Shown: positions 1,889-18,737 of the stretch, piece by piece
Layout of the letters: every line of letters begins with the position of its first letter
Position numbering within the stretch: position 1 is the stretch's first letter
Assembly (NCBI RefSeq): GCF_000719135.1
Contig: NZ_JOEK01000001.1
Span: forward strand, 496,001-560,000
Reading direction: 5' to 3'
DNA from: Streptomyces avicenniae
GTDB lineage: Bacteria > Actinomycetota > Actinomycetes > Streptomycetales > Streptomycetaceae
Length of the DNA stretch: 64,000 nt
Position numbers and translations under genes: made by a program
The notes under the pieces: generated by a model
Database searches by the model: none
What the model saw: only the letters and a program-made list of their open reading frames with translations
Told to the model about the DNA's origin: nothing

Positions 1889-1909
1889 GGACAGGGTGGT
1901 TCACGCATC

Positions 1910-2359
1910 ATGAAGATCATCCTGACCCATGAGGTCTCCGGCCTCGGCGCGCCCGGCGACGTCGTCGAGGTGAAGGACGGGTACGCCCGTAACTACCTGC
2001 TGCCCCGCGGCGTGGCGATCCGCTGGACCCGTGGTGGCCAGAAGGACGTCGAGCAGATCAGGCGCGGTCGCAAGATCCGCGAGATCGCCTCGATCGAGCA
2101 GGCCAACGAGGTCAAGAGCCAGCTGGAGGGCGTCACGGTCCGGCTGAAGGTCCGCGCCGGTACCGGCGGTCGGCTCTTCGGCTCGGTGACCCCCTCGGAC
2201 ATCGCGTCGGCCGTGAAGACGGCCGGTGGTCCCGACGTGGACAAGCGCCGCATCGAGCTGACCACCCCGATCAAGGCCCTCGGCACGCACCGGATCTCCG
2301 TCCGGCTGCACCCCGAGGTCGTCGCGAACGTCGGCCTCCAGGTGGACGCCGCGAAGTGA
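1910..2359 (+). CDS. rplI: 50S ribosomal protein L9
   Basis: L9 of the large subunit, 149 residues as expected. The N-terminal RNA-binding lobe has the signature G-(x)[19 protein letters not shown] (residues 12-34). A long helix with [11 protein letters not shown] follows, then the C-terminal lobe with [14 protein letters not shown]. It starts 21 bases after rpsR, closes the ribosomal operon, and is followed by a strong hairpin terminator. Confidence 0.97.
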
Positions 2360-8641: not shown

Positions 8642-8977
8642 TCACAGCACGTCGGACAGCTCCTGGAGCAGGCGGAGCTTGGAGCGGGCGCCGACCAGCG
8701 ACTTCACCGGCTCGCCCGCGCGGAAGAGCATCAGCGTCGGCATGGACAGCACGCCGTAGGCCGCGGCCGTGCGCGGGTGATGGTCCACGTCCAGGCTGAC
8801 GATCTTCAGCTCGCCGACGCGTTCGCGCGCGATCTCGGCGAGCACCGGGGCGATCATCCGGCACGGCGGGCACCAGTCGGCGGTGAACTTCACCAGGACG
8901 GGCAGGTCTGCGGCGAGCACCTCGGCGGCGAAGCTCTCGTCGGTCACCTCGGTGACATGGGTCGCGGTGTGCTGCAC
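8642..8977 (-). CDS. trxA: thioredoxin with CPPC active site
   Basis: A 111-residue thioredoxin, starting at a GTG preceded by GAGGAG. The active site is WCPPC (Cys36, Cys39) rather than the usual WCGPC, a change expected to shift redox potential; CPPC also occurs in other thioredoxin-like proteins. The cis-proline loop SMPTLMLF and the final GARSK region are normal. Its 5' end overlaps the 3' end of the MerR gene by 34 bases on the same strand, so the two are co-transcribed and probably translationally coupled. Confidence 0.85.
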   Translation of the reverse strand: MQHTATHVTEVTDESFAAEVLAADLPVLVKFTADWCPPCRMIAPVLAEIARERVGELKIVSLDVDHHPRTAAAYGVLSMPTLMLFRAGEPVKSLVGARSKLRLLQELSDVL

Positions 8978-9390
8978 GGCTCGGTCTCCTCTCGATCGGT
9001 CTGCGGGGGGACCAACTCGCAGCGGGGTTCCGGCGCGGCGCTCGCCGAGGCGAGCAGCAGCCGCTCGCGCACGGTCTCGCGTACCGCGTTCAGCTCGGCG
9101 ATGCAGGCGTCCAGTTCGGCGAGCTTGCTCCGGTAGACGTCGAGGGAGGCCGGGCAGGTGTCGCCGGTCGGATGCCCGGCGCGCAGGCACTCCACGAACG
9201 GCCGCGTCTCCTCCAGGCCGAAGCCGAACGCCTGGAGGGCGTGGATCTGCCGGAGCAGCCGCAGGTCGTCCTCGCCGTAGGTGCGATGCCCCTGGGCGTC
9301 GCGCCGTGCGGGAAGCAGGCCGCGTGTCTCGTAGTAGCGCAGCGCGCGCGGCGTCGTGCCCGCGCGGGCCGCCAGTTCTCCGATACGCAT
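8944..9390 (-). CDS. MerR family transcriptional regulator
   Basis: A 148-residue MerR protein. The N-terminal winged helix reads MRIGELAARAGTTPRALRYYE followed by GHRTYGEDDLRLLRQI, and a dimerisation helix covers about residues 80-115. Cysteines occur at about positions 69, 78 and 95, so a metal or redox ligand is possible. It is the first gene of an operon with thioredoxin and has a strong inverted repeat 41 bases upstream of its start. Together they suggest a thiol- or redox-responsive pair, which is inference. Confidence 0.85.
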   Translation of the reverse strand: MRIGELAARAGTTPRALRYYETRGLLPARRDAQGHRTYGEDDLRLLRQIHALQAFGFGLEETRPFVECLRAGHPTGDTCPASLDVYRSKLAELDACIAELNAVRETVRERLLLASASAAPEPRCELVPPQTDREETEPCSTPRPMSPR

Positions 9391-9430
9391 CGAGCCCCCT
9401 TCCGTCGAGGTGGTCGCCCACGACGCTAAC

Positions 9431-9450
9431 CGTTGACGTCGGCGTCAACG
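9431..9450. promoter_or_regulatory. MerR-type operator dyad upstream of merR-trxA
   Basis: CGTTGACG and CGTCAACG form perfect 8-bp arms around TCGG, 41 bases upstream of the MerR start. On the minus strand the repeat includes a TTGACG -35-like hexamer, matching the MerR habit of binding between -35 and -10. Confidence 0.6.
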
Positions 9451-11603: not shown

Positions 11604-11738
11604 GTGCTCGTCCAGCGTGTTCACCCGGCCCCGCGGCCGTCGGCCACACCGATCCACCACGCACGGGAGCACCTGGATGCCCACACAGATCAGCGCACGC
11701 GACCTCACGAAGTCCTACGGCGGCCGACGCGTCCTTGA
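11604..11738 (+). CDS. possible leader peptide of the ABC-F gene
   Basis: A 44-codon frame starting with GTG eight bases after a strong AAGGAG (11590-11595). It ends at TGA 11736-11738, which is 62 bases inside the ABC-F coding region in another frame. The peptide begins VLVQRVHPAPRPSATPIHH. Resistance ABC-F genes are commonly controlled by short leader frames where antibiotic-stalled ribosomes change mRNA folding, and the position fits that. Alternatively it is a chance frame and the AAGGAG is unused, since no other clear ribosome binding site precedes the ABC-F ATG. Confidence 0.4.
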   Translation: MLVQRVHPAPRPSATPIHHAREHLDAHTDQRTRPHEVLRRPTRP

Positions 11739-13308
11739 CGCCGTCACCTGCGCGTTCCCCACCGGCGGACGCACGGGGATCATCGGCGAGAACGGGTCGG
11801 GCAAGACGACCCTGCTGCGCCTCCTCGCCGGTGACGAGCGACCGGACGCGGGCGGCGTCGTCCGCCAGGCGGAGGGCGGCATCGGCTACCTGCCGCAGGA
11901 CGGACAGCTCGCCCCTGCGCTCACCGTCGCCCAGGTCATCGACGGCGCACTCGGCGAACTCCGCGCCGTCGAACGCCGGATGCGCCGCCTCGAAGCGGCG
12001 CTCGGACGCGGCGACGAGACCGGCCTCGCCGAGTACGGCGAGCTGCTGACCGTCTTCGAACTGCGCGGCGGCTACGACGCGGACGCCCGCGTCGAGCGCG
12101 CCCTGCACGGCCTCGGCCTGCGCGGACTGTCCCACGACCGCCGCGTCGGCAGCCTCTCCGGCGGCCAGCGCGTCCGGCTCGGACTCGCCGCGCTGCTGTC
12201 CGCGGCGCCCGAGGTGCTGCTCCTCGACGAGCCGACCAACCACCTCGACGACAACGCCCTCACCTGGCTCCAGGACCATCTGGTCGCCAGGCGCGGCACC
12301 CTCGTGACCGTCTCCCACGACCGCGTCTTCCTCGAACGCGTCGCCGACGGCCTGCTGGAGGTGGACGCCGACCGTGGCACCGTCGTCCGGTACGGGAACG
12401 GCTACGCCGGCTACCTGGCCGAGCGCGCCGCGGCCAGGCGGCGCTGGGAGCAGGCGCGGGAGGACTGGGAGGAGGAGCTGGCCGGCCACCGCAGGACCGC
12501 CGCCACGACCGCACGCCGCGTCGCCCCCGGCCGCGCCATGAAGGACGGCAACAAGATGGCGTACGACCGGCACGGCGGCCGGGTCCAGCAGTCGGTGGCG
12601 AGCCGGGTGCGCAACGCGGAGGAACGTATCCGCAGGCTTCTCGCCGACCCGGTGCCCCCGCCGCCCGAACCGCTCAGGTTCGCCCCGGGCGCGTTCGCCG
12701 CGGCGGCCGGGGACGCGCGGCCCGGCACCGTGCTGGACGCGGAGGGCGTCGCAGTTGCCGGACGGCTGGCGCCGGTCGGGCTCGCCCTCGCGCCGGGCGG
12801 CAGGTTGCTGGTCACCGGGCCGAACGGGTCGGGCAAGAGCACCCTGCTCGACGTCCTCGCCGGGGTGACCGAGCCCGACGCGGGGTACGTCGCCCGGCGC
12901 GGCCGGGTCGCGTACCTGCCGCAGGACCCCCTGCCGGGGCGGCCGGGCGAGACGCTGCTGGCGGCGTTCGCCCACGGGCGGGCGGGCACGCCCGAGGAGC
13001 ACGCGGCGCGGCTCCTCTCCTACGGTCTGTTCGCGCCTGAGCAGCTCACCGTGCCGGTCGGCGGCCTGTCGGCGGGTCAGCGGCAGCGCCTCGCGCTCGC
13101 GCGGCTCCTCGCCGAACCGGCCGACGTGCTGCTGCTGGACGAGCCGACCAACCACCTGTCCCTCGGGCTGGTGGAGGAGCTGGAGACGGCGCTCGACGGC
13201 TACGGCGGCGCGCTCGTCGTGGTCAGCCACGACCGGCTGTTGCGGCGGCGCTGGCGCGGCGAGCGGCTGGAGCTGACGCGGCGGGACCAGTACGAGGAGG
13301 CACGGTGA
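11677..13308 (+). CDS. ABC-F ATPase, antibiotic-resistance type
   Basis: A 543-residue cytoplasmic protein with two ABC ATPase domains and no membrane segments. Domain 1 has GENGSGKTT (about residue 40), LSGGQRVRLG and LLLDEPTNHLDD. Domain 2 has GPNGSGKST, LSAGQRQRLALARLL and LLLDEPTNHLSL. The inter-domain linker (about residues 245-330) contains AMKDGNKMAYDRHGGRVQQS, like the macrolide/lincosamide/streptogramin self-resistance proteins of Streptomyces (TlrC, OleB, SrmB group). Such proteins enter the ribosomal E site and displace antibiotics. A streptogramin lyase gene follows 66 bases later. Confidence 0.9.
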   Translation: MPTQISARDLTKSYGGRRVLDAVTCAFPTGGRTGIIGENGSGKTTLLRLLAGDERPDAGGVVRQAEGGIGYLPQDGQLAPALTVAQVIDGALGELRAVERRMRRLEAALGRGDETGLAEYGELLTVFELRGGYDADARVERALHGLGLRGLSHDRRVGSLSGGQRVRLGLAALLSAAPEVLLLDEPTNHLDDNALTWLQDHLVARRGTLVTVSHDRVFLERVADGLLEVDADRGTVVRYGNGYAGYLAERAAARRRWEQAREDWEEELAGHRRTAATTARRVAPGRAMKDGNKMAYDRHGGRVQQSVASRVRNAEERIRRLLADPVPPPPEPLRFAPGAFAAAAGDARPGTVLDAEGVAVAGRLAPVGLALAPGGRLLVTGPNGSGKSTLLDVLAGVTEPDAGYVARRGRVAYLPQDPLPGRPGETLLAAFAHGRAGTPEEHAARLLSYGLFAPEQLTVPVGGLSAGQRQRLALARLLAEPADVLLLDEPTNHLSLGLVEELETALDGYGGALVVVSHDRLLRRRWRGERLELTRRDQYEEAR

Positions 13309-13374
13309 CGACCCGCGGGGGCCGGAACTCCGGAACGACGCGAACAATCCGAACGACCGCGACGAAAGGACGGC

Positions 13375-14262
13375 ATGTTCACACTCATCCCACTGGGCGA
13401 CCCGGGCAAGGGGCCCTACGGAATCACGCAGGGTTCCGACGGTGCACTGTGGCTGACCCTGGTGCACAGTGGTGAGATCGCGCGCCTGGGAATCGACGGC
13501 CGGGTGGACCGCTATGGGCTCGACGCCCCGGGCAGTCGCCCCACCATGATCGCGCCGGGGCCGGACGGTGCACTGTGGTTCAGCAGGTACGGGGACCACC
13601 GCATCGGGCGCATCACGGTCGAGGGGCACGCGTCGTCCTACACCGTTCAGACGCCGGAGAGCGGGCCGTACGGGCTCGTGGCGGGCATGGACGGTGCCGT
13701 GTGGTTCACCGAGCTGAACGCGGACCGCATCGGGCGCATCACCGTGGAGGGACAGGTCACGGAACACCCGCTGCCCGTCCAGGGCGCGTACCCCTCGGCC
13801 ATAGCGCCGGGGCGGGACGGCGCGCTGTGGTTCACCCTCAACCAGGCGGACGCCATCGGGCGTCATGTCCCGGGTGGTGGCACCACCGTGTTCCCCCTGC
13901 CCACGCAAGGGGCCGCACCGGTCGGGCTCACGCGTGGCGGGGACGGTGCCATGTGGTTCGTCGAGATCGGCGCAGGGCAGATCGGGCGCATCACTGCGGA
14001 CGGGGCGGTGACGGAGTACGCGCTGCCCGACCGCGCGGCGCGCCCGCACGCCGTGGTGACCGACCCCGGGGGCGACGGCTGCTGGTTCACGCAGTGGGCG
14101 GCGGGCAGCGTCGGCCACGTGGGAGCGGACGGCACGGTGCGGGAGTACGCGCTGCCGTCGGGCACGGCGGAGCCGCACGGCCTGGCGTTCGGCGCGGACG
14201 GAGCGCTGTACGTCGCCCTGGAGAGCGGCCAGGTGGCGCGGCTTGACCTTCAAGCGGCCTGA
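13375..14262 (+). CDS. vgb: virginiamycin B lyase (streptogramin B lyase)
   Basis: A 295-residue seven-bladed beta-propeller with repeated blades of the form DGALWFT...IGRIT. Vgb opens the lactone ring of type B streptogramins by elimination, without hydrolysis. The residues expected for catalysis are present: His226 (ARPHAVV) and Glu266/His268 (AEPHGLAFG), two positions from the known staphylococcal His228 and Glu268/His270. Tyr15 is in the substrate-binding position. A GAAAGGACGG lies before the ATG. Same direction as the ABC-F gene, so likely one streptogramin-resistance unit. Confidence 0.9.
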   Translation: MFTLIPLGDPGKGPYGITQGSDGALWLTLVHSGEIARLGIDGRVDRYGLDAPGSRPTMIAPGPDGALWFSRYGDHRIGRITVEGHASSYTVQTPESGPYGLVAGMDGAVWFTELNADRIGRITVEGQVTEHPLPVQGAYPSAIAPGRDGALWFTLNQADAIGRHVPGGGTTVFPLPTQGAAPVGLTRGGDGAMWFVEIGAGQIGRITADGAVTEYALPDRAARPHAVVTDPGGDGCWFTQWAAGSVGHVGADGTVREYALPSGTAEPHGLAFGADGALYVALESGQVARLDLQAA

Positions 14263-14279
14263 ACCCGCACTCTCGTGTC

Positions 14280-15371
14280 ATGGATGCGAGGGACGTGAGT
14301 GACGCGGGGGACACGGGCGGCGGGCTGCTGAGCATCGGCGTCTTCGCCCGGCGCGTCGGCCTGACGCCGAGCGCGCTGCGCTTCTACGACGACTGCGGCG
14401 TGCTGCGGCCCGCCCGTGTGGACGCGGCGACCGGCTACCGCTGGTACGCGCCGCAGCAGGTGGACCGCGCCGTCACGGTCCGGCGGCTGCGGGCCGCCGG
14501 GCTGCCGCTGGTCGATGCGCGGGCGGTGCTGGACGACGGGCCGGACGAGGCACGGCGGGTGCTGACGGAGCACGCGCGACGCACTCGGCGTACGGCCGTC
14601 GCGGCGGAGGCGGCGATCGAGGAGGTGCTGCGGGAGCTGCCTGTCGCCGCGCGGCGCGCCGACGCGTGGGTCGGTGCGGCCGAGCTGGCGAGCGCGGTCC
14701 GGCAGGTGGCGCCCGCCGCCGCGTCGGGTGAGGCGCGGGCGCGCTTCCCGGTCCTGGGGCACGTGCTGGTCGAGCTGACGGGCCAGGACGTGCGGCTGGT
14801 CGCGACCGACCGCTACCGGCTGGCCGTCCGGGTGCTGCACACGGAACGGGTGACGGGCGGGCCGACGCAGGTCCTCGTGCCGCCGGAGGAGCTGGTGTCC
14901 GCGGCGGCCTGGGCGCTGCGCCTGCCCGAGGTGAGGATCACGGTCGAGGACGCCTCGGCACGGCTGTCGGGCGAGGGCGTGGACTCCGGGCGCGAGCTGC
15001 CGGTGGCGGACGGCGCGTACCCGTCGTACCGGATGGTCCTCGACGGGATGCCACCGGTGACGACCCGGTTGATCCACGACCGCGCGGCGCTGGCCGAGGC
15101 GGTGCGGGAGGCGGCGGGACGGGAGGCCGCGTTCGTGCTCGACGACGGCACCGGCGGCCCGGAGCCCACGCGCGTCGTCCGTACCGGGCCGCCCGTGCGG
15201 CTCGCGTTCGACCCGTCCGTGCTGCTCGCAGCCCTGGAGGCGGGGGTGGGGCCGGACGTGCTGTTCGAGGTGTCGTCGTCCTACGGCCCCGTCGTGGTGC
15301 GCTCGGCCGACCAGGGCACCTTCACCACGCTCGTGATGCCCGTACGCAGCGCACCCGATCCGCCGAGCTGA
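14280..15371 (+). CDS. MerR regulator fused to DNA sliding-clamp domains 2-3
   Basis: A 363-residue fusion. Residues 16-86 are a MerR DNA-binding domain (IGVFARRVGLTPSALRFYDD; GYRWYAPQQVDRA), followed by a helical linker (87-130). Residues 133-356 match the second and third domains of the DNA polymerase III beta clamp: RLVATDRYRLAV (173-183), AYPSYRMVL (246-254), LAFDPSVLLAAL (308-319) and a terminal VMPVR (352-356). The first clamp domain is missing and the MerR domain takes its place. Residues lining the clamp's peptide-binding pocket are kept (Thr176, Arg180, Leu181, Pro248, Val253, Met353). It starts 17 bases after vgb. Role unknown; a ring-forming or clamp-motif-sensing regulator is possible. 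Confidence 0.85.
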   Translation: MDARDVSDAGDTGGGLLSIGVFARRVGLTPSALRFYDDCGVLRPARVDAATGYRWYAPQQVDRAVTVRRLRAAGLPLVDARAVLDDGPDEARRVLTEHARRTRRTAVAAEAAIEEVLRELPVAARRADAWVGAAELASAVRQVAPAAASGEARARFPVLGHVLVELTGQDVRLVATDRYRLAVRVLHTERVTGGPTQVLVPPEELVSAAAWALRLPEVRITVEDASARLSGEGVDSGRELPVADGAYPSYRMVLDGMPPVTTRLIHDRAALAEAVREAAGREAAFVLDDGTGGPEPTRVVRTGPPVRLAFDPSVLLAALEAGVGPDVLFEVSSSYGPVVVRSADQGTFTTLVMPVRSAPDPPS

Positions 15372-16104: not shown

Positions 16105-17268
16105 ATGTCGAATAGTGATGCGGTGGAGTGGCCTGCCGGATTCCGCGCGTTCACCGCGCACGCGGGCCTGCGGGACCAGGGCGACGACCTCTCGGTGATC
16201 GTCTCGGACCTGCCCTCGGTCAGCGCGGCGATGTTCACGCGCAGCCGGTTCGCCGGGCCGTCCGTCGTCCTCAGCAGGCGGCACGCCGCGGGCAGGCGGC
16301 TGCGCGCCGTCGTCACCCTGGCGAAGAACGCGAACGTGGCCACGGGCGCCCAGGGCGCGGCGGACGCCGCCGAGGTCGTCGCCCACGTGGCCGACGCGCT
16401 CGGCCTCGCGCCGGACGAGGTCCTGATCAGCTCGACGGGCGTCATCGGCCGTCCGCTGCCCATGGACCCGGTCCGTGCCCGGCTGACGGCCGAGTGGGGC
16501 CCGTTCGACGCGACGCCGCTGACCGTCGCGCGCGCCATGATGACGACCGACACGCGGCCGAAGACGGCGGAGCGCGCGGTCGGCGGCGCGCGGATCGTCG
16601 GCGTCGCGAAGGGCGTCGGGATGATCGAGCCCGACATGGCCACGATGCTCGCCTACCTCGCCACGGACGCCCTGGTCACGCCCGAGCAGCTGGACGCGGC
16701 CCTGCGCGCGGCGGTGGACGAGACGTTCAACTCGCTCAGCATCGACACCGACACGTCCACCTCGGACACGGTCGCGATTCTCGCGAACGGCGCGGCGGGC
16801 CCGGTCGCGCCTGACGACTTCGCGGCGGCGCTGCGGGCCGTGTGCCTCGACCTGGCGGAGCAGCTGGCGCGCGACGGCGAGGGCGCGTCGAAGCTGCTGC
16901 GCGTGACCGTCGAGGGCGCGCGCGACCGGGAGCAGGCCAAGCGGATCGCCAAGAGCGTGGTGAACTCGCCGCTGGTCAAGACCGCGGTCCACGGGGCCGA
17001 CCCGAACTGGGGCCGCGTCGTGATGGCCATCGGCAAGAACGCGGACGACACCGACATCGACCAGGAGAAGGTCGCCGTGCGGTTCGGCGCGGTCGAGGTC
17101 TACCCCGCCGAACAGAGCGACGAGGTGCTGGCCGAGCTGACGCGCGTCATGAGCCAGGACGAGGTGGAGATCGGCGTCACCCTCGGCATCGCGGACGGGC
17201 GGGCCACGGTCCTCGGGTGCGACCTGACCGACGGTTACATCCGGATCAACGCCGACTACACGACCTGA
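16105..17268 (+). CDS. argJ: ornithine acetyltransferase (ArgJ family), stand-alone copy
   Basis: A 387-residue N-terminal-nucleophile enzyme that moves acetyl groups between N-acetylornithine and glutamate. It has the self-cleavage signature KGVGMIEPDMATML, with cleavage expected before Thr180. Other family patterns are SSTGVIGRPLPMD, TDTSTSDTV and NSPLVKTAVHGADPNWGRV. No other arginine gene is adjacent, unlike the usual argC-argJ-argB-argD cluster. The N-terminal pocket reads NANVATGAQG where housekeeping enzymes usually have a glycine-rich NACTG-type motif. It is therefore probably a paralogue, comparable to the OAT-like enzymes linked to clavulanic acid or other secondary metabolism. Confidence 0.85.
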   Translation: MSNSDAVEWPAGFRAFTAHAGLRDQGDDLSVIVSDLPSVSAAMFTRSRFAGPSVVLSRRHAAGRRLRAVVTLAKNANVATGAQGAADAAEVVAHVADALGLAPDEVLISSTGVIGRPLPMDPVRARLTAEWGPFDATPLTVARAMMTTDTRPKTAERAVGGARIVGVAKGVGMIEPDMATMLAYLATDALVTPEQLDAALRAAVDETFNSLSIDTDTSTSDTVAILANGAAGPVAPDDFAAALRAVCLDLAEQLARDGEGASKLLRVTVEGARDREQAKRIAKSVVNSPLVKTAVHGADPNWGRVVMAIGKNADDTDIDQEKVAVRFGAVEVYPAEQSDEVLAELTRVMSQDEVEIGVTLGIADGRATVLGCDLTDGYIRINADYTT

Positions 17269-17337: not shown

Positions 17338-17811
17338 ATGGAGACGGCGGCCACGGATCGAGCCCCGGCCCGGCTTCGGGCCATGCCGAGCTGGCTTCTC
17401 ACGCATGTGGCGACGCATGCGGGGCGGCTGGTCGGCGAGGCGTTCGCGGGCATGGGGGCACGGCGGTACCACTACGCGCTGCTGGCGGCGCTGGCGGAGT
17501 TCGGCCCGTCGAGTCAGGCGCTGCTGGGGCGGCGGTGCGGCATCGACCGCAGCGACGTCGTCGCCGCCATCAACGAGCTGGCGGGTGACGGGTACGTCGT
17601 GCGCGATCCCGACCCGGCCGACCGGCGGCGCAACGTGATCACCATAACCACGGCGGGTGCCCGGCATCTGGCACGCGCGGACGAGGTGCTGGCCCGCGCG
17701 CAGGCCGACCTGCTCGCGCCGCTGACGGAACCGGAGCGGACCGAACTCGTCCGGCTGCTCGGTCTGCTCCACGAAGCGGGCGGCGGGGCGGGCGCCGGGG
17801 TCGCCCAGTGA
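17338..17811 (+). CDS. MarR family transcriptional regulator
   Basis: A 157-residue winged-helix protein: YHYALLAALAEFGPSSQALLGRRCGIDRSDVVAAINELAGDGYVVRDPDPADRRRNVITIT is the standard MarR core (about residues 43-105). Its stop codon overlaps the GTG start of the next gene (GTGA), so it is translationally coupled to a kinase-like gene and probably regulates the unit. Confidence 0.88.
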   Translation: METAATDRAPARLRAMPSWLLTHVATHAGRLVGEAFAGMGARRYHYALLAALAEFGPSSQALLGRRCGIDRSDVVAAINELAGDGYVVRDPDPADRRRNVITITTAGARHLARADEVLARAQADLLAPLTEPERTELVRLLGLLHEAGGGAGAGVAQ

Positions 17812-18737
17812 CGGGGGCCCGCGACGGTTCCGTGCCGTTACTCCGGGACATCGCCCTCGACGCCGCGCGGCGCCACGGCCTGTCCGCCGCGCGCGTGACC
17901 CGGTCCCCGGTGCAGGGCGCGGCGGCCACGGTATGGCTGCTCGGGGACGGGCTCGTGCTGAAGATCGCGCACCGCGACCCGGCGCTCGCCGCCGACCTGC
18001 GCAAGGAAGCCGTCGTCATCCCGTACGCGGCCGGGCTCGGCGTACGGACGCCCGAGATCGTCGAGTTCGGCGACGACTCGGAGCTGCCGTACCTGCTGCT
18101 GCGCCGCGCGCCGGGCGCCGTGCCCGACGGCGGCGAGCCGTCCCCCGCCGTGCACCGCGAACTGGGCGGTCAGCTCGCCCTGCTGCACGGCGCCCGCCCG
18201 CTGCCCTCGCTTCCCGGCGTGCCGGTGGACGACGCGGGGGGCGATCCGAGGCCGGGCGTCGAGCGGCTGGCTTCCGAGGGCTATCTGAGCGCGGGCCTGG
18301 CCGACTGGCTCGCGGGCTGGTTCGACGACCTCGCGGCGCGGATCCCGGCCGCGCCGCCCGAGCCCGTGCTGATCCACGGGGACGTGTCCGCCCTGAACCT
18401 GCTGGTCGGCGGCCCGGACGGCGGCGGCCTGACCGCGCTGATCGACTGGGGCGACGCGGTGGTGACCGATCCCGCCGTCGAGTTCGCCAAGGTGCCGCCG
18501 CGCGGTGTGGCCGACGTCCTGGCGGGCTACGGCGTGCGGGCGGACGAGGCGGACGTGTGGTGGGCACGCGTCCTGTGGCACCACCTGAGCTGGGCCGTTC
18601 CCCGGCTGGCCGACCCGCCCCGTCCGCAGACGGCGCACTGGAGCGCGCAGCCGGCGAACCGGCTGCTCGAACTCCTCCGGCACTACGCCGGGCTCTTCCC
18701 CGGCGCCGGTTCGATGAGGTCCCAGCGGTTGCCGTAG
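17808..18737 (+). CDS. aminoglycoside phosphotransferase-like kinase (TTA-containing)
   Basis: A 309-residue kinase of the APH/choline kinase fold. It has the catalytic loop HGDVSALNLLV (about residue 190) and the metal-binding IDWGDA (about residue 213). The nucleotide pocket region reads LLGDGLVLKIAH with the conserved lysine. Substrate unknown: antibiotic, sugar or other small molecule. Codon 11 is TTA (17838-17840), the rarest Streptomyces codon, read only by the bldA tRNA, so full translation is expected only in differentiated cultures. The last 55 bases overlap the converging VOC gene. Confidence 0.85.
   Translation: MTGARDGSVPLLRDIALDAARRHGLSAARVTRSPVQGAAATVWLLGDGLVLKIAHRDPALAADLRKEAVVIPYAAGLGVRTPEIVEFGDDSELPYLLLRRAPGAVPDGGEPSPAVHRELGGQLALLHGARPLPSLPGVPVDDAGGDPRPGVERLASEGYLSAGLADWLAGWFDDLAARIPAAPPEPVLIHGDVSALNLLVGGPDGGGLTALIDWGDAVVTDPAVEFAKVPPRGVADVLAGYGVRADEADVWWARVLWHHLSWAVPRLADPPRPQTAHWSAQPANRLLELLRHYAGLFPGAGSMRSQRLP

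Follow-up and report, generated by a model that had tools for sequence, protein, structure and literature searches.

A predicted autoregulated MerR-type switch carrying two sliding-clamp domains in Streptomyces avicenniae and in related loci of other actinomycetes

Background

Regulators of the MerR family typically act at promoters with a spacer of 19-20 bp (PMC9909328, available in part), and in TipA a short form of the protein, made from an internal start, traps the drug (PMC7762955, in its accessible portion). The partner-binding pocket of the DNA sliding clamp, DnaN, is the docking site of the natural clamp partners (PMC11139829, as far as the available text goes), and the antibiotics griselimycin and mycoplanecin are described as binding this pocket, subsite II included (PMC10817943, available sections). 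The window analysed here, a stretch of 64,000 nucleotides from Streptomyces avicenniae, encodes a protein that joins these two themes by combining a MerR head with two sliding-clamp domains (hereafter referred to as MerR-clamp). Such proteins currently bear the vague database label of DNA polymerase III subunit beta family protein, and a literature search, conducted at the level of titles and abstracts with thin coverage of the subscription journals and hence no proof of absence, found no published account of any of them.

Methods

Relatives were sought by protein searches in which about 8000 candidates were scored each, and the best 120 of 1246 and the best 120 of 491 matches were considered; the MerR-clamp genes of L067, L098 and several Kribbella were located by tblastn. 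Upstream DNA was obtained from 79 loci (the window, 25 loci of named genomes, 40 of sampled Streptomycetales genomes and 13 of other genera), from which one (L022) was left out since its contig begins inside the gene, leaving 78 for the promoter analysis. Searches for the promoter box allowed one or two mismatches, and weaker sites fall below detection. The 18 residues of the clamp pocket were taken from a 2024 review of the clamp (PMC11139829, the part available). Locus groups are labelled A, B, C, K, K2 and O in the present analysis.

Results

The features of the locus are collected in Table 1. The description of the gene in an earlier note as a fusion of MerR with clamp domains 2 and 3 was confirmed by Pfam (MerR_1 and PF02767) and by a clamp fold match. 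The N-terminal winged helix-turn-helix is of the MerR type (MerR_1, 49.3 bits against a cut-off of 21.6; the second MerR profile, 36.9 bits against 28.2), and the solved structures nearest to it by sequence include BmrR and BrlR entries. In the fold match, domains 2 and 3 alone of the clamp aligned to the window protein, domain 1 being absent, which supports the proposal that the MerR head occupies the place of domain 1. Structure prediction agrees with the proposed fusion, the C-terminal half of the monomer model matching the clamp fold, while the comparison with profiles of the DnaN families was favourable in part: PF02767 matched, but PF02768 reached only E 0.012 and the NCBIfam dnaN profile stayed below threshold (48 bits against a cut-off of 138). 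Dimerisation presumably proceeds through the long helix that follows the MerR head in the monomer model. PADLOC returned just one short match on the gene, covering the MerR part.

Table 1. Features of the MerR-clamp locus (positions in the window)
Feature	Position	Strand	Basis or remarks
MerR-type promoter/operator	14243..14273	+	core in 78/78 loci; once in own genome within 2 mismatches
-35 element	14243-14248		TTGACC; followed by 19-nt spacer
Dyad	around 14248-14264
-10-like element	14268-14273		CACTCT
MerR-clamp gene, 363 aa	14280..15371	+	ATG 6 nt behind -10-like hexamer
MerR winged-helix domain, residues 16-86	14325..14537	+	Pfam MerR_1 at 18-85, E 5.3e-13
Long helix, residues 88-119 (presumed to mediate MerR dimerisation)	14541..14636	+	secondary structure of monomer model
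Clamp domain 2, about residues 125-260	14652..15059	+	Pfam PF02767, fold match, pocket mapping; border approximate
Pocket residues, clamp domain 2			L159, T176, R178, Y179, R180, L181, P248, M252, V253
Clamp domain 3, about residues 261-357	15060..15350	+	fold match, pocket mapping; Pfam PF02768 only E 0.012
Pocket residues, clamp domain 3			L351, M353, P354, V355, R356; subsite II altered (D311, V314)
TPR partner gene, 227 aa	15410..16093	+	38 nt behind MerR-clamp stop; Shine-Dalgarno-like GGGAGAA before ATG

Without domain 1 the protein cannot assemble into a ring of the known type; its ring function looks lost, and a working sliding clamp was rejected on the same ground. The channel-lining helix 202-212 carries a net charge of -2 in the window protein, against +1 in the host's own DnaN and +2 in that of E. 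coli, and the other three channel helices hardly differ in charge between MerR-clamp and DnaN. Sensing of the load state of the clamp, which had been suggested, is thus unlikely. A full-length dnaN is located about 46 kb from the MerR-clamp gene, between genes that we take from their translations to be dnaA and recF.

The partner pocket, earlier said to be kept, is indeed retained in the window's branch at subsite I and changed at subsite II (D for N320 and V for Y323, E. coli numbering). The window protein is identical to its own DnaN at 11 of the 18 pocket residues versus 53 of 208 positions elsewhere in domains 2-3 (p 0.0025). For comparison, the DnaN of E. coli, a functional clamp that is similarly diverged, agrees with the same DnaN at 8/18 pocket residues and at 21% of positions outside, and the DnaN proteins of five other actinobacterial loci at 11-16/18 and 48-67%, respectively. 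All 72 aligned members are closer to their own DnaN in the pocket than in the rest of the domains. Subsite II is altered also in clade A, group B and the Kribbella group. In clade C, position 320 is N in 11/13 members, and position 323 is F or Y, position 246 is R and positions 362-363 are MP in 13/13 each; seven clade C rows compared show 12-16/18 pocket identity to their own DnaN and 24-27% elsewhere. L097 has 16/18 in the pocket versus 53/210 elsewhere (p 1e-7). Three clade-C-like rows from other genera have 11-12/18 and the 21 remaining rows 8-12/18.

A MerR-type promoter precedes the MerR-clamp genes, a new finding that is absent from the earlier note. The core TTGAC[CT][TC]TC is present upstream of the gene in 78/78 loci and in 4/7800 shuffled sequences, and in 77 of the 78 a -10-like hexamer of the form nAnnnT follows with a spacer length of exactly 19 nt; the same hexamer occurs at spacers of 15-18, 20 and 21 nt in none and at 22 nt in 6. 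An ATG or GTG is found 5-7 nt after the hexamer in 71/78 loci, so that the mRNA is probably leaderless. Within the dyad, positions 7/19 form a Watson-Crick pair in all 78 loci, 8/18 in 63 and 5/21 in 61, some pairs being asymmetric. Pair 6/20 is T-A in 19/20 clade A and 8/9 group B loci and C-G in 13/13 clade C loci, an exchange between clades that would fit a dyad bound by protein. In the window the promoter overlaps the end of the preceding vgb gene, the stop codon of which lies inside the box.

In its own genome the box occurs once within 2 mismatches, at the MerR-clamp promoter. Exact copies in 26 other genomes all precede the MerR-clamp gene (22/22): 10/10 in ten clade C genomes and 12/12 in 16 clade A/B genomes. 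Two further clade A/B genomes have a one-mismatch copy at this gene, and in G220 and G052 the box at the gene has diverged beyond what the search pattern detects. The clade C genomes gave three 2-mismatch matches elsewhere, which mean nothing, as the reversed control pattern gave seven; the clade A/B genomes gave eight one-mismatch matches away from the gene and none for the control. Four of these eight are an identical one-mismatch box, TTGACCGTCGAGGAGTTCGAAG, which lies away from the MerR-clamp gene in G178, G142, G052 and G220, perhaps in coding sequence. With a looser pattern, a single additional weak site appeared in the window (1900-1920, minus strand), which is at chance level as at least 2 matches were seen in 7/100 shuffles. 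On these counts the MerR-clamp protein most likely regulates its own operon, and it may have weaker further sites.

The earlier proposal that the protein switches adjacent resistance genes found no such support. A resistance-like group comprising an ABC-F gene, a Vgb-lyase family gene and an APH-family kinase is located nearby (about 11680-14262 and 17808-18737); the ABC-F gene is TlrC/CarA-like (633 bits against a cut-off of 800) and the Vgb-lyase family gene scores under the VgbA and VgbB cut-offs. Among 59 neighbourhoods compared, vgb stands beside the MerR-clamp gene solely in the source genome, and an ABC-F cluster is near it in 5, at scattered places. Control of vgb or of the ABC-F gene was rejected in view of the gene's own promoter, the single box within 2 mismatches and the rarity of the two genes among the neighbourhoods compared; MerR-clamp probably controls its own operon only. 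Another MerR-family ORF was noticed by eye in the ORF list at 8944-9390, overlapped on the same strand by a thioredoxin-like frame (8642-9448).

MerR-clamp matches at 1e-25 were obtained in 99 of 293 Streptomycetales genomes, which all belong to a single genus, and in 26 of 394 Actinomycetia genomes from 12 of 137 genera. In the whole-protein tree clade C is a clade set apart with support of 100/99, A is a clade with a single O row inside and B falls within a clade holding most of O; the Kribbella rows form a clade separate from the Flexivirga rows. The tree of the clamp domains is compatible with the fusion having arisen once or twice (clade C versus the rest). One genome, G459, has a second full-length DnaN (L264:10266-11420) about 14 kb from its MerR-clamp gene; it was considered as a resistance clamp and dropped, its neighbours looking by eye like housekeeping genes.

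The TPR gene is a conserved partner of MerR-clamp, again a new finding. It directly follows the MerR-clamp gene in 16/20 clade A loci (L072 being a weak match), 9/9 group B loci and 8/13 loci outside the genus (L191 measured from a partial match), and in none of 13 clade C and 24 Kribbella/Flexivirga-type loci. Among the 36 strong TPR matches (at least 182 bits) listed for the 293 Streptomycetales genomes, 34 follow a MerR-clamp gene, the two exceptions being G261, without a MerR-clamp match at 1e-25, and G284, where that match stands at the contig start. The two proteins are joined in a single 540-aa ORF in G024 (L268:2334-3956), and a 457-aa ORF of G177 combines MerR and the TPR protein with a portion of the clamp. 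The TPR protein is modelled as all-helical (pLDDT 93.8); a fold search gave weak generic TPR matches, none at E 0.001 or better, and no clamp-binding motif is evident by eye in the TPR alignment.

Weaker TPR paralogues (up to 152 bits) are present in most sampled Streptomyces genomes, some TPR match being found in 268/293 genomes. At 18 of 19 Streptomyces loci (L138-L156) the paralogue lies directly behind a gene that, from its translation, is presumably ung, and at the 19th it is 1.5 kb away; ung is not beside TPR at 7 loci of other genera without MerR-clamp. The position behind ung hints at a role in DNA repair rather than a drug role. In two genomes of another family (L213, L214) a TPR paralogue faces, by eye, a gene resembling ligA, for NAD-dependent DNA ligase. 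In the source genome argJ (16105-17268) comes next after the TPR gene, at a distance of 11 nt, and the two may share a transcript; the argJ cluster is beside the TPR gene in this genome alone among the loci compared.

In 18 of 24 Kribbella/Flexivirga-type loci, and also in L188 of another genus, the gene behind MerR-clamp has the same orientation and encodes an MFS transporter; the other 6 of the 24 lack it. The gap from the end of the match is at most 60 nt in 16 Kribbella/Flexivirga-type loci, and the transporter start overlaps the MerR-clamp stop in 9 of 19 compared. Pfam MFS_1 was confirmed for two of the transporters. Most of these loci come from one genus and are therefore not independent.

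A site of the AGGGAG/AAGGAG type with an ATG is present at the MerR/clamp junction in 13/13 clade C genes, the linker being otherwise poorly conserved, and 13 of the 14 in-frame ATGs that have such a site in the clade C genes are the junction one. The arginine column of the site is AGG in 8/13, compared with 21 AGG among 498 arginine codons overall. The junction site also occurs in the clade-C-like L023, L189 (GTG) and L190. No internal start in the linker was found in the window, in any of 20 clade A loci or in any of 20 of the Kribbella group; group B has a site in 2/9 and other genera in 5/13, mostly with GTG and at varied positions. Genes behind the clade C members have nothing evident in common. 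Clade C is best described as a solo clade with a predicted clamp-only short form, in a layout analogous to that of TipA.

Discussion

The earlier suggestion of a MerR switch with the clamp partner pocket as its likely sensor is supported by the retention of the pocket and by the MerR-type promoter. At about even chances, we propose an autoregulated, TipA-like MerR switch of a single operon, whose ligand domain is a two-domain clamp, whose likely ligands are antibiotics that occupy the clamp pocket and which serves as both alarm and decoy. A MerR-clamp dimer would sit on the 19-nt spacer of its own promoter; a molecule docking in the clamp pocket would lead to distortion of the DNA and turn the operon on, and the output would be more MerR-clamp together with a partner, the TPR protein in the window's branch and the MFS transporter in most Kribbella/Flexivirga relatives. 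In clade C, which has no shared partner, the internal start would yield a free mini-clamp. The likeliest ligands would be antibiotics aimed at the pocket, of the griselimycin or mycoplanecin type or others, for which the protein would be alarm and decoy at once, as TipA is for thiopeptides.

Several observations suggest a clamp-directed antibiotic as the ligand: the gene is patchily distributed, one branch is coupled to a transporter, clade C has a predicted short form like that of TipA, and natural products that bind the pocket are known. A gene found in roughly one in three Streptomycetales genomes fits an accessory defence. Against it count the alteration of subsite II outside clade C, the lack of an internal start in clade A and the Kribbella group, a TPR protein without an evident drug role and the absence of the transporter from a quarter of the Kribbella/Flexivirga-type loci. 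In the window's branch there is good support for the switch and less for a decoy, as subsite II is changed and the internal start absent; the changed subsite together with the TPR partner suggests a different ligand or a helper.

The signal might instead be internal: the pocket would bind segments of the QLxLF type in polymerases or repair proteins, and the operon of MerR-clamp and TPR would respond to replication or repair stress. This seems unlikely, if by no means negligible. In its favour, the pocket is the one used by the natural clamp partners (PMC11139829, available portion), and the partner in the window's branch is a protein, not a transporter. The TPR paralogues behind ung in 18/19 Streptomyces loci point the same way, although the link was not seen at the 7 TPR loci of other genera; a box before its own gene only, weak matches aside, the patchy presence (99/293 Streptomycetales genomes) and the existence of transporter-coupled relatives argue against it.

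The tight linkage of the TPR gene (34 of the 36 strong matches listed) and the one-ORF fusion of G024 would also suit a pocket whose main task is to bind a co-regulator, be it the TPR partner or another protein, with the real signal entering through the TPR protein. This is improbable, as 13/13 clade C and 24/24 Kribbella/Flexivirga-type loci have no TPR gene and yet keep the pocket, clade C best of all, and the eye finds no clamp-binding motif in the TPR alignment. There is, finally, a slim chance that the pocket residues persist for folding or by inertia, in a domain that senses something unrelated or is a mere scaffold. Some of them are near-invariant in clamps and may aid folding, the E. 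coli clamp of like divergence is also enriched in the pocket (8/18 versus 21% outside) and subsite II has drifted outside clade C; however, clade C, with 12-16/18 identity to the host pocket, lies above the E. coli clamp at like overall divergence, and the pocket is the closer part in 72/72 aligned members.

If the antibiotic-sensing switch is the correct reading, actinomycetes would be alerted to an antibiotic, and protected from it, by a copy of the pocket that it targets, and in clade C also by a free mini-clamp serving as a decoy, a generalisation that we regard as possible rather than probable. It would represent an antibiotic sensor that mimics the target, here the replication clamp, which currently attracts interest as a drug target, and its presence in 99/293 Streptomycetales genomes would imply that clamp-directed antibiotics are far commoner in soil than the few known. 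It would also offer a ready biosensor for new clamp inhibitors, a pointer to their likely producers and an indication of pre-existing protection in soil bacteria. A vague database label is also resolved into testable parts, namely a ligand pocket, a promoter, partner genes and a short form.

Comparison with known systems

The MerR head is close in sequence to the BmrR-type multidrug regulators, and an efflux gene is coupled to it in the Kribbella branch; BmrR, however, has a GyrI-like domain (PMC7762955, in the part available), and none is among the Pfam hits of the window protein. Domains 2 and 3 and subsite I of the pocket are shared with the DnaN sliding clamp, whereas MerR-clamp lacks domain 1 and the ring and is encoded outside the dnaA-dnaN-recF locus. 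The self-resistance clamps GriR and MypR, from the producers of griselimycin and mycoplanecin, resemble it as clamp-derived proteins, in that MerR-clamp may likewise guard against clamp antibiotics, but they are second DnaN genes within an antibiotic gene cluster (PMC10817943, available sections), whereas MerR-clamp is a regulator that contains just part of a clamp; the ORF list, together with a small number of Pfam scans, gave this partial clamp only and no second complete DnaN in an antibiotic cluster.

AlbA, the albicidin-binding MerR protein, likewise joins a MerR head to a two-part C-terminal half, which in AlbA traps the drug; the trap of AlbA is built of alpha-helical repeats, unlike the clamp fold copied from a drug target in MerR-clamp (PMC6078987, for both points in its accessible text). 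Differences from the TipA class (TipAL/TipAS, SkgA) lie in the ligand domain, which here is a clamp, with no TipAS domain (PF07739) matched by Pfam at E up to 1, and in the window's branch, which is without an internal start for the ligand domain alone. The likeness to this class consists of a MerR head with a ligand domain, a putative autoregulated unit and, in clade C, the internal start (PMC7762955, available portion). As in TipA autoregulation, the MerR-clamp gene's own promoter bears the predicted operator box, found once in the source genome within 2 mismatches.
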